DNA from: Streptomyces sp. NBC_01591
GTDB taxonomy: Bacteria; Actinomycetota; Actinomycetes; Streptomycetales; Streptomycetaceae
Length of the DNA: 64,000 nucleotides
Assembly: GCF_035918155.1 (NCBI RefSeq)
Contig: NZ_CP109328.1
Span: 1,116,001 to 1,180,000 of the forward strand
Direction: 5' to 3'
Shown here: positions 46,248-64,000 of the stretch, one piece after another
Layout: every line of letters begins with the position of its first letter
Numbering within the stretch: the first letter of the stretch is position 1
Translations under genes and position numbers: made by a program
The notes under the pieces: generated by a model
What the model was told of the DNA's origin: nothing
The model's input: the letters and a program-made list of their open reading frames with translations, nothing else
Databases searched by the model: none

Positions 46248-47483
46248 TCAGGCCGCGAGGCCGATGTCGCCGGGGGTTCGTGGTTCGTAGAGGGCCCCGG
46301 TGCGGATCATTGCGTGGATGACGTTCACACGTTGGCGGGCCAGGCGGAGGATCGCTTGGGTGTGGGTCTTGCCGCGTGCGCGTTGACGGTCGTAGTAGGT
46401 GCGGGAGGAGCGGTCGGATTTGCAGCCGATCGCGGCGAACGCGGCCTGGAAGAGGGCGCGTTTGAGGAGTCGGTTGCCGCGGTGGGGTGCGTGCTCGCCA
46501 CGGATGGAGGTGCCCGAGGACTTGGTGGCGGGGGCGAGTCCGGCGTAGGAGGCGAGGTGTCCTGCGGTGGGGAAGGTGGTGCCGTCGCCGATGGCGACGA
46601 TCACGGCGGCGGTGGTCCTGACGCCCATGCCGGGCATGGAGGTCAGGAGGTGGAAAAGAGGGAGGGCCTCCAGCAGGGCGGCGATCTCCTGCTCGGCCTG
46701 GCGGCGCTGGGTGTGGGCGGCGGCGAGCTGGGCGGCAAGTCCGGGCACGATCAGCGCGCTGGCCTCGGTGCCGGGCACGATGACGGTCTGCTCGGCAAGC
46801 GCGTCGAAGATCTCCGCGGTGAGGTGGTGGGCCTTGCGCGAGCCGTGCGCCTTGAGCAGGGCCTCGCAGCGGGCGTGGCCCAGTTTCTTCAGCCTGGCCG
46901 GGGAGCCGTGCCGTTCAAGGAGGGCCAGGATGTAGGGGTAGCCCAGCCGGGGGCCGACCACCCGCTCCAGGGTGGGATGGATCTGGGAGAGCAGGCCGCG
47001 CAGCCGGTTGGAGGTGCGGTTGACCTCGCCGGCCAGGTCGTTGTCGTAGCCGGTGAGCATGGTCAGCTCGGCCAGCTTCTCGTCGTCGCGGTCCACCGCG
47101 CGCAGGGTGTGCGGCATGGTCCGGGCGGTGTCGGCGATGACGAAGGCGTCGCGGGCGTCGGTCTTGGCTTCGCCCGGGTAGAGGTCGGCGGCCCGGCGCA
47201 TCGAGAGTCCCGGCAGGTAAGCGACCCGGCAGCCGGTCGCGCGGGCCACGGTCAGTGGCAGCGCGCCGATGTTGGCGACCTGGTCCACGATCACCAGGAC
47301 GGTGCCGAACTTGGCCCTGAGCTTGTCGAACAACTCCCGCAGGCGGGCCTCGGTGTTGGGCAGCTTCTTGTCGTGGACGGTCTTGCCCTGCCCGGTCAGG
47401 CCGCGGGCGTGGTGGAACTCCTTGCCCAGGTCCAGGCCGAGGAACAGACCTATGCCGGAGATATCGATGACGGTGTCGGCCAT
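46248..47483 (-). CDS. IS110-family transposase (DEDD, RuvC-like plus transposase_20)
   Basis: 411 aa. The N-terminal DEDD RuvC-like domain: ISGIGLFLGLDLGKEFHHA (first Asp), GTVLVIVDQVANIGALPL, YPGEAKTDARDAFVIADTAR (KTDxxDA, last acidic pair). The C-terminal Transposase_20 domain has LLTSMPGMGVRTTAAVIVAIGDGTTFPTAGHLASYAGLAPATKSSG with the conserved Ser nucleophile region. Start ATG 47483. Close relative of the split transposase at 61128/64000. Confidence 0.93.
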   Translation of the reverse strand: MADTVIDISGIGLFLGLDLGKEFHHARGLTGQGKTVHDKKLPNTEARLRELFDKLRAKFGTVLVIVDQVANIGALPLTVARATGCRVAYLPGLSMRRAADLYPGEAKTDARDAFVIADTARTMPHTLRAVDRDDEKLAELTMLTGYDNDLAGEVNRTSNRLRGLLSQIHPTLERVVGPRLGYPYILALLERHGSPARLKKLGHARCEALLKAHGSRKAHHLTAEIFDALAEQTVIVPGTEASALIVPGLAAQLAAAHTQRRQAEQEIAALLEALPLFHLLTSMPGMGVRTTAAVIVAIGDGTTFPTAGHLASYAGLAPATKSSGTSIRGEHAPHRGNRLLKRALFQAAFAAIGCKSDRSSRTYYDRQRARGKTHTQAILRLARQRVNVIHAMIRTGALYEPRTPGDIGLAA

Positions 47484-60101: not shown

Positions 60102-60275
60102 TCACAGCCAGGTGGTGATCGCTGCTGAGACCGTTTCCTGCATGGTCAGTTTGAGGAGCCGTTTGTAGCAGCAGAGGGCGGCGGCAAGTCCGAGACAGGA
60201 CAGGTAGTTGCCTGGTTTGCGCTCGTAGCGGTGGTTGAGGCGGTGGTATCCGGTCAGCCAGGAGGTTGGGTCGGC
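60102..60275 (-). pseudogene. IS5-family transposase, C-terminal fragment (3' exon of group II intron)
   Basis: SWLTGYHRLNHRYERKPGNYLSCLGLAAALCCYKRLLKLTM is the end of an IS5-family transposase. Upstream of SWLTGY the sequence changes to the 3' end of a group II intron, so the intron probably inserted into this IS. Confidence 0.8.
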
Positions 60276-60480
60276 CGCGCGGTGAGGTGCTCGCCGTGGG
60301 CGAGTCCTGTTCCGCGCGGCCTCCCGCCGAACCGGACATGACGGTTTCCCGGTCATCCGGCTCTCCAGTGACTACGGTGAATGTTCTGGCTGGCTGTTCC
60401 GAATGAATGCGGTTGTGGCAGACGGCGCAGGCCACGACCGGGACGAGGGCGGGCCGGCCCGAATGTCCGCGCGCCTGGAA
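60276..60480 (-). mobile_element. Group II intron 3' remnant (maturase HNH tail, domains V-VI)
   Basis: Minus strand. ACAVCHNRIHSEQPARTF (about 60380-60440) is the C-terminal CxxCHxxIH tail of group II intron reverse transcriptase/maturases. It is followed by a domain V hairpin (60329-60363) and a GC-rich domain VI-like stretch ending at IS5 coding sequence. The intron's 5' part and most of the RT are missing. Confidence 0.7.
60329..60363 (-). ncRNA. Group II intron domain V
   Basis: RNA GAGCCGGAUGACCGG-GAAA-CCGUCAUGUCCGGUUC: 35 nt with the AGC catalytic triad near the 5' side, a GAAA tetraloop and a two-base bulge, as in bacterial domain V. The 5' arm pairs with the 3' arm across the loop. 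Confidence 0.78.
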
Positions 60481-61127: not shown

Positions 61128-61517
61128 TCAAGCTGATCGGGTGGGTTGGGGCTCGTAGAAGGTGCTGTCGCGGAGCATCGCGAAGAGGACATCGGCTCGT
61201 CGTCTCGCGAGGCAGAGGAGGGCCTGAGTGTGGTGCTTGCCCTGGGCGATCTTCTTGTCGTAGTAGGCCCGGGAGGTCGGGTCGCCCAGGGCTGCGAACG
61301 CGGAGAGGAAGAAGGCCCGTTTGAGCTGTTTGTTCCCTCTCCGGGACGGTTGTTCGCCTCGGATCGAGGAGCCCGAGTTGCGGGTTGCCGGGGCGAGTCC
61401 TGCGTAGGCGGCGAGGTGGGCGGCGGAGGGGAAGCTGCTGCCGTCGCCGACCTCGATGAGGATCCTGGCTCCGGTCCTGATCCCGACTCCGGGCATCGAG
61501 GTCAGGACCGGGGAAAG
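61128..61517 (-). pseudogene. Outer IS110 transposase, C-terminal part
   Basis: Reads LSPVLTSMPGVGIRTGARILIEVGDGSSFPSAAHLAAYAGLAPATRNSGSSIRGEQPSRRGNKQLKRAFFLSAFAALGDP (Transposase_20 domain; blocks MPGVGIRTG and GLAPATRNSGSSI) and ends at 61128. It continues EELLEAHP of the N-terminal part at 63213 exactly when the inner IS110 is removed. Confidence 0.88.
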
Positions 61518-61540
61518 AGACATCCGATGCAGTTGATCTG

Positions 61541-62782
61541 TCAAGCGGCGATGGTGAGTTGTGGGGTTGACGGTGCGGGGAACGCGGCGAGCTCGTCATA
61601 GCGGGTTCGCTTGGTAAGGCAGTGGTGGAGGCAGCCGAGCATGCGGTTGAAGAGGTTGCGCTGAGCGGCGGTGTGACGGTCTCCATCGGCTCGCCGCCGG
61701 TCGTAGTGGGCCCGGGCTCCGGGTGAAGCGGTCAGGCTGGCGAAGGCCCAGACATAGCCGACCGAGGCCAGACGCTGGTTCTTGACCCGTCGGGCCATGA
61801 CCGCGAGGCTCCTGCCGGACGCCCGGGTGACCGGTGCGGCTCCGGCGAAGGCCTTGAGCCCTCTAGCGTCGGTGAAGCGGGATCGGTCGTCACCGATCTC
61901 GGCGAGCACCCGGGCGCCGGTGAGAGCCCCGAGCCCTGGAAAGCTGGTGATGACCTCGGCGTCCGGGTGCGTGTCAAAAGACTCCACCGTCGCTTCGGCG
62001 AGGTCGTCGACACTGGTGCAGGCGGCATCAAGTTGTCTGAGCAGGGCGATGGCCTGGCGGCCCATGGCCTGCTCGACCTGCGGAGGCTGGCGCATCTGCG
62101 GGATGCGCAGTGCGTCTCGGAGCCGTTCGGCTTCCGCCTCGATGCCGCGTTGGCGGCCGGCCCTTTTCAGGAGCGAGCGCAGCTGGACGCGGGTGAGCCT
62201 GGCCGCCTGTTCGGGTGTGGGGGCCGCGGCCAGGAGGACGCGGGCGACGTTGCTGCTGATTCCTTCGCGGTTGTGCTGGAAGGTCGCGAGGAAGCCGGGG
62301 AAGCATTCGCGCAGGTGGGAGCGGAGTTTGTTGCCCGCTTGGGTGCGGTCCCAGACCGCGTCCTGCTGAGCGCGGGCCAGGACGGCTATAGCGCGGGCGA
62401 GTTCGCTGTCGTCGGGCAGCGGCCGGTGGGCGGCCTTGTCCGTGCGCAAGATGTTCGCGAGCACCATGGCGTCGAGGTGGTCGGACTTCTTGCGGGTGAC
62501 CGTATGCCGGTCGCGGTAGCGTGCGGCGGCCATCGGGTTGATCGCGTAGACGGGCCGGCCGGTGGCTCGCAGGCAGGCCACAAGGAGGCCGCGGGAGGTC
62601 TTGATCGCGACAGGAATCAGGGTGTTCGCGCTGTCGCCGTGAGCGGTGAGGAGACTGAGGAGCTGGTGCAGGCCCTCGAGGTCGTCGTTGATTCGGGCCC
62701 TGGATAACAAGGTGCCCTCGTGGTCGATCAGAGCGACATCGTGGTGGTCGCTGGCCCAGTCGATTCCGCAGGTGACGGTCAT
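61541..62782 (-). CDS. Inner IS110-family transposase
   Basis: 413 aa from ATG 62782. RuvC-like DEDD: MTVTCGIDWASDHHDVALID (first Asp), VAIKTSRGLLVACLRATGRPVYAINPMAAARYRDR, TRKKSDHLDAMVLANIL (SDxxDA). Central coiled helix region, then Transposase_20: ITSFPGLGALTGARVLAEIGDDRSRFTDARGLKAFAGAAPVTRASGRS with the Ser nucleophile region. Different subgroup from the outer and 46-kb IS110 enzymes. The enzyme would use the bridge RNA encoded in its own leader. Confidence 0.94.
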   Translation of the reverse strand: MTVTCGIDWASDHHDVALIDHEGTLLSRARINDDLEGLHQLLSLLTAHGDSANTLIPVAIKTSRGLLVACLRATGRPVYAINPMAAARYRDRHTVTRKKSDHLDAMVLANILRTDKAAHRPLPDDSELARAIAVLARAQQDAVWDRTQAGNKLRSHLRECFPGFLATFQHNREGISSNVARVLLAAAPTPEQAARLTRVQLRSLLKRAGRQRGIEAEAERLRDALRIPQMRQPPQVEQAMGRQAIALLRQLDAACTSVDDLAEATVESFDTHPDAEVITSFPGLGALTGARVLAEIGDDRSRFTDARGLKAFAGAAPVTRASGRSLAVMARRVKNQRLASVGYVWAFASLTASPGARAHYDRRRADGDRHTAAQRNLFNRMLGCLHHCLTKRTRYDELAAFPAPSTPQLTIAA

Positions 62783-62829
62783 CGTGGCGTGTTCGTCCTC
62801 TCGGTCTGGGGTGTCCTGCTGGTCGCAGC

Positions 62830-63205
62830 CGTGCGGGGGCACGCGTCTCCCTAATGGAAGGGCTCGATGGCCCTGCATCCGATTAGCCGTTCGTGACCCC
62901 AGCGACTCACAGGGCCCTCGGTCTGCTCCAGAGCTCGGCGGCTCCAGGCGTGGTGAGAGGTGACCCCTGTGGGCGGCTCGGACCACAAACTTCAACGATC
63001 CGATCATCGGACTGGATGCGGTGGGGTACGGACTCGTGACGCTGGACGGCACCGGAGGCCGACTCTTGACCAAGGGATCCAAGTCCCTGGGGGTGTGCGC
63101 GGCTTCTCCGGCACCGACCACCGTCACGAGGGTGATGCGGGGCCCGCAGTCTCTTTCAAGGCGTCGACGGGCCGGGGTGGGCCTGGCGGTGCCCCGCATC
63201 ACTGC
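62830..63205 (-). ncRNA. Candidate IS110 bridge RNA (target- and donor-binding loops)
   Basis: Minus-strand leader upstream of the transposase. Target loop: a 12-bp perfect stem (63191-63202 with 63132-63143, GTGATGCGGGGC/GCCCCGCATCAC) closes a 47-nt loop. It contains AGGCCCACCC (63175-63184, equal to the left target) and GAAAGAG (63151-63157, complementary to core plus right target CTCTTTC). Donor loop: stem GGGGTCACG/CGTGCCCC (62892-62900 with 62836-62843) encloses AUCGGAUG (62876-62883, equal to the element's right end) and CCAUUAG (62851-62857, complementary to core plus left end). Guide order and polarity follow IS621. RNA ends are guesses. Confidence 0.85.
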
Positions 63206-63212
63206 CCATTAG

Positions 63213-64000
63213 GGTGGGCCTCCAGCAGTTCCTCGATGCGCCCGGCCAGGAGCTTGCGCTGGTCAAGGACGGCGGCGAGCGAGCCGGCCAGGCTCGGGAC
63301 GATCAGCGCGGCCGCTTCGGTGCCGGGAACCACCACGGTCTGCTCGTCCAGCGCGGTGAATATGTCCTCGACCAGCCGCTCGGCCATCCGCGGCGCCTTC
63401 GGCCGCAGCAGCGTGACCAGCCGCCGACGGCCTGCCTTGCGGATCTGGGCCGGTGACCCGAACCGCTCCAGCAGGGCCAGGACAGCCGGGTGTTGCAACC
63501 GTGGGCCCAGAACCCGTTCCAGGGACGGGTGGATCTGGGTGAGCAGGCCGTGGAGCCGGTTCGCGACCCGGGTGGCCTCACCGGTCAGGTCGTCGTCGAA
63601 GCCGACGATCATCTCCAGCTCGGCGATCGTCTCGTCTTCGAGGTCGACCGAGCGCAGAGTGTGAGGCATCGCGCGGGCGGCGTCGGCGATGATGAACGCG
63701 TCCCTCGCGTCTGTCTTGGCCTCGCCGGGATAGAGGTCGGCGATCCGCCGCATCGTCAGACCGGGCAGGTAGGCGACGGGGCAGCCCATGTCCCGGGCCA
63801 CCGCCAGCGGCAGGGCTCCGATCGAGGCCGGCTGCCCACGACCAGCACCGTTCCGTGCTTGGCCTGGAGTTTCGCGAACAGCTCGCGGAGCTTGGGCTCG
63901 GTGTTGGGCAGGCGCTTGTCGAACGCCTTCTTCCCTGCCGGGGTGACGGCGGTGGCGTGGTGTTCGCCTTTGCCGACGTCCAGGCCGAGATAGACGTCGA
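63213..64000 (-). pseudogene. Outer IS110 transposase, N-terminal part (continues past window)
   Basis: Minus-strand coding begins beyond 64000. Seen: DVYLGLDVGKGEHHATAVTPAGKKAFD (first Asp) near the window end, then GCPVAYLPGLTMRRIADLYPGEAKTDARDAFIIADAAR and IEELLEAHP at the inner-IS110 junction. A frame change occurs near 63830 (one frame ends at 63801 upstream of MARDMGC), so it may carry an extra lesion. Close relative of the 46-kb transposase. Confidence 0.82.

Follow-up and report, generated by a model that had tools for sequence, protein, structure and literature searches.

The closest described system to the one treated here is IS621, whose DEDD recombinase with a Transposase_20 domain is accompanied by a leader RNA encoded upstream of the recombinase gene. 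In the parts of the two IS621 reports drawn on here (PMC11208160, PMC11208158), this bridge RNA has one target loop and one donor loop (Durrant 2024, PMC11208160); the target loop precedes the donor loop, the left guide reproduces the top strand, the right guide pairs with the top strand, and the CT core is contained in the guides. Except for the single target loop, these features recur, with the leader RNA as a prediction, in an IS110-family element on the minus strand of a 64,000-nucleotide stretch of the Streptomyces sp. NBC_01591 genome (contig NZ_CP109328.1, positions 1,116,001 to 1,180,000; hereafter, the window), where the element is nested in the transposase gene of another IS110 element (Table 1). 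Judged by its protein, ends and guides, it is a member of the IS621-like group of the IS110 family; what would be new is the number of its target loops. The guides, the site and a second hairpin ahead of the donor loop can be read from the sequence itself, and comparison of relatives shows that guides covary with sites and that nearly identical elements sit where different loops match. We consider it highly probable that the leader encodes a multi-target bridge RNA, in which two target loops accompany a single donor loop; loop 1 matches the element's own site and loop 2 likely addresses another target.

Two further RNA-guided systems invite comparison. As in the seekRNAs of IS1111/IS110 elements (Siddiquee 2024, PMC11187229), a non-coding region sets the target here, and related elements differ in target; the available part of that paper describes no second target guide per element, and it places the IS1111 non-coding region downstream of the gene. 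Several split guides in tandem are also found in TIGR-Tas arrays, and the RNA-binding domains of Tas and IS110 proteins have been linked (PMC12045711, in the part used here); unlike in those arrays, the several stems described below lie in a transposon leader, and the gene that follows encodes an IS110 recombinase. A literature search by title and by the opening of the abstract, which did not extend to bioRxiv, supplements or most subscription papers, returned no multi-target-loop bridge RNA. IS110-family elements that enter other mobile elements are familiar from IS4321 and IS5075, which land in the terminal repeats of Tn21-type transposons. The present element resembles them in lying inside another mobile element; unlike theirs, the targets in its family are often conserved transposase codons rather than a transposon end, and there is more than one target per element.

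Leader and guides of the window copy

A first-pass annotation, made from the letters alone, had described an IS110 element with four readable bridge RNA guides, arranged in one target loop and one donor loop in the order and polarity known from IS621. Every one of these strings was located on the minus strand. The left target guide shares AGGCCCACCC with the flank (flank 63221-63212, leader 63184-63175), its tenth base being the C of the CT core; GAAAGAG (63157-63151) is complementary to CTCTTTC (61519-61513), and CCATTAG (62857-62851) to CTAATGG (63212-63206). The CT core is present at both element junctions, and joining the flanks restores the reading frame of the outer transposase (LLEAH^PLSPVLTSMPGVG), as in an empty site of an IS110 element. 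Order and polarity of the guides agree with what the consulted part of PMC11208160 describes for IS621. The annotation was thus right about an IS110 element whose guides match the site it disrupts, and wrong about a single target loop, as it had overlooked a second hairpin (63127-63036). Likewise, the four guides are all there, and the count is too low, since two more are predicted in that hairpin (63098-63090 and 63071-63065). Compared with the one target loop of IS621 (PMC11208160, as far as cited above), part of the family carries two to four target-loop hairpins before a single donor loop, namely two in the window leader and up to four in the relatives L062 and L063, and the proteins are only remotely similar (E 7.4e-11).

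Table 1. Positions of the element, its leader and the surrounding gene in the window
Feature	Position	Strand	Remark
C-terminal part of interrupted outer IS110 transposase	61131..61517	-	Transposase_20
Core CT + right target	61513..61519	-	CTCTTTC
IS110-family element between two CT cores	61520..63210	-	nested in another IS110 transposase gene; 9 copies in genome
Donor sequence copy at right end	61521..61528	-	ATCGGATG
Recombinase/transposase CDS, 413 aa	61541..62782	-	DEDD_Tnp_IS110 + Transposase_20; Lys at residue 61
Leader (predicted bridge RNA region), 430 nt	62783..63212	-	CT core to start codon
Right donor guide	62851..62857	-	CCATTAG; pairs with core + left end
Left donor guide	62876..62883	-	ATCGGATG; identical to right end
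Target-loop hairpin 2	63036..63127	-	stem backed by compensatory changes in 10 distinct leaders
Right target guide 2 (predicted)	63065..63071	-	GGTCAAG
Left target guide 2 (predicted)	63090..63098	-	GCACACCCC
Target-loop hairpin 1	63133..63201	-	
Right target guide 1	63151..63157	-	GAAAGAG
Left target guide 1	63175..63184	-	AGGCCCACC(C)
Core CT + left end	63206..63212	-	CTAATGG
Left target	63213..63221	-	AGGCCCACC
N-terminal part of interrupted outer IS110 transposase	63213..63999	-	DEDD_Tnp_IS110; continues past window edge

Guides covary with insertion sites among relatives

Relatives were gathered as 80 loci from genome contigs, five plasmids and 100 stretches from further genomes. These contained 164 recombinase reading frames, 121 of which had both ends recognisable by the donor-guide rule; removal of duplicates and of insertions with short flanks left 90 distinct insertions. 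Guides were scored against sites without gaps over 9 + 7 letters, with half points for wobble pairs and a maximum of 16. A longest-common-substring scorer was dropped as too strict for guides with one mismatch.

The own site scored at least 13.5/16 in 53/90 insertions, versus 140 of 7555 pairings of a leader with an unlike site (1.9%), and the window copy reached 16/16. The claim that the guide matches lie beyond chance is thereby borne out, as is the expectation, put forward as a check on relatives, that target guides follow the insertion sites and donor ends and donor guides stay conserved. Earlier subsets gave 31/43 versus 113/1645 at a threshold of 13 and 43/68 versus 81/4162 at 13.5, and a permutation test with the longest-common-substring scorer (n = 43) gave 0/20000. 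The left end begins with CTAAT in 86/90 insertions, by an end finder that itself favours CTAAT, and the flanks vary; conservation of the donor ends is partly built in, as the end finder relies on the donor match.

Two groups of relatives stand out at their sites. L163 and L164 have identical 443-nt leaders and occupy two sites with the common right target CTTGACC; the left guide fits the L163 site poorly, hinting that a right-guide match alone may sometimes be enough. A mostly single-loop clade (L061, L064, L094, L190, L194-L197, L199) occupies CTGTCTC or CTGTCTG sites, which lie in GC-rich, apparently non-coding sequence (judged by eye).

Near-identical elements occupy sites that match different loops

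Among leaders of similar length, the guides in use fall into two classes by distance from the left end, about 28 nt and about 116-125 nt, and the window leader has one hairpin at each of these two distances. Three relatives, L114, L167 and L170, carry loop-1 guides identical to those of the window copy (AGGCCCACC/GAAAGAG) and are inserted at GTCGTACGC^CT^TGTCC, ACCCACCCC^CT^TGTCC and CGAGTACGC^CT^TGTCC, respectively. Their loop 2 fits these sites with 13, 15 and 15 of 16, and loop 1 fits only 9/16 at L167 and 8/16 at L170. Together with L296, they keep AGGCCCACC/GAAAGAG at unrelated sites, the very case that the annotation had named as contradicting its one-loop model. The loop-1 guides can stay unchanged at such sites because there is a second target loop, and since relatives use it, the single-loop model fails.

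In one genome (G244), the 1710-bp elements L170 and L171 differ by one letter and occupy different sites: the L171 site fits loop 1 with 16/16 and loop 2 with 8, the L170 site loop 1 with 8 and loop 2 with 15. The one difference, at leader position 166, turns a G-C pair of the loop-2 stem into G-U. Trebonia kvetii holds two 1848-bp four-loop elements, L062 and L063, that likewise differ by one letter (in the gene) and occupy two sites. At the L062 site, in a DDE_Tnp_4 gene, loop 1 scores 15/16 and each other loop 9; at the L063 site, in a Mutator/IS256-type transposase gene, loop 4 scores 15/16 and the others 7 (loop 1), 8 and 9. The same switch of loops is seen at lower identity in L200/L301 (94.8%), L294/L296 (89.3%) and L167/L169 (about 93% across the aligned portions; at 1444 bp, L167 is shorter than L169 with 1698 bp). 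Fixed loops compared with unlike sites reach at least 13 in 0.64% of 8377 comparisons.

From these comparisons we infer that several loops of one leader could each serve as target loop. The leader would be transcribed and bound by the recombinase, one target loop at a time would pair with the target, the donor loop would hold the joined ends (right end-CT-left end), and exchange at the CT core would follow. The IS621 structure shows that the target loop and the donor loop within a complex belong to different RNA molecules, and IS621 recombination in vitro also proceeds when the two loops are supplied as separate RNAs (PMC11208158, in the part cited). Extra target loops on one RNA would therefore require no new chemistry.

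Architecture and conservation of the target-loop hairpins

The 36 confirmed target loops share a common build: an outer stem encloses a 9-nt left guide, an inner hairpin of 16-19 nt and a 7-nt right guide ending in AG. A structure-only finder based on this build, blind to targets, detected at least two distal modules (hairpins separated from the donor loop by more than 120 nt on its upstream side) in 27/90 leaders versus 1/270 dinucleotide-shuffled ones. It met the guides in use in 43 of the 53 cases, with 1.5 expected, and in 21 of the 27 multi-loop leaders the used guide (scoring at least 13.5) sits on a module. Four settings of the finder gave 39/90 versus 25/270, 27/90 versus 1/270, 24/90 versus 1/270 and 15/90 versus 0/270; a loose hairpin threshold yielded 0.70 modules per shuffled leader, and a stricter one was used for the count.

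With the loose finder, 49/68 leaders also showed a hairpin of target-loop shape 50-120 nt before the donor loop. It was rejected as a further target loop, as all 53 used guides (at least 13.5) are farther than 120 nt from the donor loop. The window copy of this conserved hairpin adjoining the donor loop is at 62955-62922.

Eleven leaders, 10 of them distinct, were aligned; 99.2% of the cells of the loop-2 stem are paired and 21 cells are two-sided, with a covariation score of 0.285 versus 0.145; in all three of these measures the stem exceeds 500/500 shuffles, and partners slid along the alignment pair in at most 59.5%. The shuffles ignore kinship; the slid control accounts for it and favours a structure drawn from the same alignment. 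These values bear on the possibility that the window copy has a canonical one-target bridge RNA, its second hairpin being a purely structural stem or the decayed remnant of an earlier loop, without a role in targeting. All three source-genome loci of the window element do use loop 1, with AGGCCCACC^CT^CTTTC at each, and the lack of a clear loop-2 site in that genome, detailed below, points the same way. Nevertheless, a decayed or purely structural hairpin strikes us as very improbable, given that the homologous loop 2 fits the sites of L114, L167 and L170, the latter two poorly matched by loop 1, and that the loop-2 stem is maintained by compensatory change.

Several points weigh against a bridge RNA with two target loops. 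Its status as a bridge RNA is a prediction from sequence. The window loop 2 has no exact site in its own genome, and its 58 matches with at most two mismatches compare with 39 when the pattern is reversed as a control. Residue 61 of the window recombinase is Lys, whereas Glu occupies this position in 76 of the 77 aligned proteins. In the covariation analysis, 43 of the 164 recombinase frames lacked a recognised end pair and were excluded, and 37/90 insertions score below 13.5, among them much of the clade inserting at CTGTCTC; L175 and L177 score 10.5, and the L163 flanks 12.5 in spite of the leader shared with L164. The finder thresholds were chosen after inspection of the 36 confirmed loops, the looser setting is far noisier (39/90 leaders versus 25/270 shuffled), and the 27 multi-loop leaders are related, not independent. 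For the loop-2 stem, 92/500 shuffles are as high in the number of pairs with two-sided change (6), and 469/500 in further pair types.

Apparent gain and loss of target loops

On a quick recombinase tree of the 77 of 90 proteins with intact length, the single- or multi-loop state requires at least seven changes, and loops therefore appear to have been acquired and lost in modular fashion within the family. L049 and L181, for example, have two loops in leaders of 424-425 nt, and their sister elements one loop in 362-367 nt. Such a leader might instead be a chimera of nested or tandem insertions, that is, two bridge RNAs with separate histories, and the number of changes on the tree would suit that origin. 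So would L168 (G058:C1:4329700-4335700), in which the left end and half of loop 1 are present a second time, as a 53-bp tandem copy in front of the full element. We regard a chimera as unlikely, as the right donor guide is present in a single copy in each of the 27 multi-loop leaders (417-598 nt long), the loops lie between the left end and the donor loop, and different loops serve near-identical elements. Nested or tandem insertion may nonetheless be how the arrays originated, and the L168 copy is a possible intermediate of their growth.

Insertion into other transposase genes

The flanks of 68 insertions were assessed, 50 by Pfam scans of one or two flanking pieces; 10 were left unscanned. 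The flank reading frame was chosen by third-position GC content (GC3), and for L071 and L178 the scan used a different frame or a different piece. A transposase family was found in 32/50 scanned flanks: DDE_Tnp_1/1_2/4, HTH_Tnp_4, DUF4096 (IS4/5), Transposase_mut, Transposase_20 or DEDD_Tnp_IS110, OrfB_IS605 and DUF772, those of L188 and L205 below the curated cut-off only. Eight further insertions occupy the window-type IS110 site (by Pfam for the window fragments, by reading frame for the others). Altogether, at least 40/68 insertions are within or abut transposase genes (IS110, IS5-type, IS256/Mutator and others), counted regardless of guide fit (L175 and L177, at 10.5, do not fit). The junctions show recurring motifs, AD^KAYSS, DAGK^K..GRKRH, EQS^KNYRYSTNHQ and LLEAH^PLS.

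Insertions in transposase genes could also arise from mobile elements piling up in dispensable regions, with no aim by the guides. Consistent with such piling up, 18 of the 50 scanned flanks have no transposase family (they include ANTAR, alcohol dehydrogenase-like, methyltransferase and DapB-like genes), and the 15-nt loop-2 target of L170, found in 50/295 genomes of the genus, lies outside an IS5-type transposase gene at 10 of 30 sampled sites and inside one at the other 20. The loop-1 target argues for the opposite. Its 16 nt occur in 62/295 genomes of the genus, with no matches to the reversed pattern among the rows listed, and 29/30 sampled sites lie against IS110 transposase sequence, by a query with the N-terminal IS110 part whose end abuts the site; the remaining one lies close to the end of a contig. 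The source genome retains no exact, uninterrupted loop-1 target; 15 sites depart from it by one or two mismatches (4 in the reversed control), and all of them are inside IS110-type transposase genes. We therefore hold undirected accumulation to be rather doubtful as the explanation. Fourteen of the 15 near-match sites have two mismatches and lie in another multicopy IS110, none of them holding an insertion; in the window, that IS110 occupies 46290-47438 on the minus strand (contig C2 1162290-1163438) and carries AGGCCCTCCCTCTTTT, with 14 equal-score matches in the genome.

Guided insertion into transposase genes would fit a broader picture that we favour with some reserve: a clade whose bridge RNAs carry two to four interchangeable target loops, each for conserved codons of a different transposase family, the addresses being swapped, gained and lost as modules. 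An element of this kind would retain a limited number of addresses; in many cases these would be conserved codons within other transposase genes, and an insertion there probably leaves host genes intact. The bridge RNAs in the literature are described with a single target stem and a single donor stem. If the picture holds, natural multi-loop RNAs would show how IS110 elements can be retargeted without loss of the old target, would connect bridge RNAs to tandem guide arrays as their counterpart in transposons, and would point to a natural blueprint for recombinases that carry several addresses on a single RNA. The preference for transposase genes, if real, would mean that these IS110 elements parasitise other mobile elements under RNA guidance.

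Recombinase and host genome

The recombinase matches PF01548 (E 7.7e-38) and PF02371 (E 1.7e-13) in Pfam. By PDB sequence search, it is remotely similar to the recombinases of IS621 (PDB 8wt6, E 7.4e-11) and ISCro4 (9t56, E 2.8e-8). Among the 77 aligned recombinases, conservation is near complete at D8 (76/77), E61 (76/77), D101 (77/77), D104 (76/77) and S322 (76/77), these residues being assigned by motif as the putative acidic tetrad and catalytic serine. We take position 61, by motif, to be the Glu of the DEDD acidic tetrad, its second residue; a phmmer alignment places the IS621 Glu three residues earlier. Because of Lys at this presumably catalytic position, the window copy is probably inactive, a non-catalysing sibling of a recently mobile element; 5/9 source-genome copies have Glu there.

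The window is part of contig 2 of a three-contig, 10.25-Mb genome. Of the nine full copies of the element in this genome, four match the window copy in every letter; a single-letter difference is seen in four others and a two-letter difference in the last. By coordinates and 60-nt flanks they represent three loci, in two kinds of outer IS110, and two of the three loci are repeated four times near contig ends. At either end of contigs C1 and C2, corresponding insertions are equally far from the terminus, and the contigs look as if they shared long terminal repeats; the window element is inside the shared part. A scan of the window at Rfam gathering thresholds returned no bridge RNA match; its sole match, elsewhere in the window, is a group II intron (RF00029, 46.6 bits) at 60265-60365 on the minus strand, close to the nested elements.
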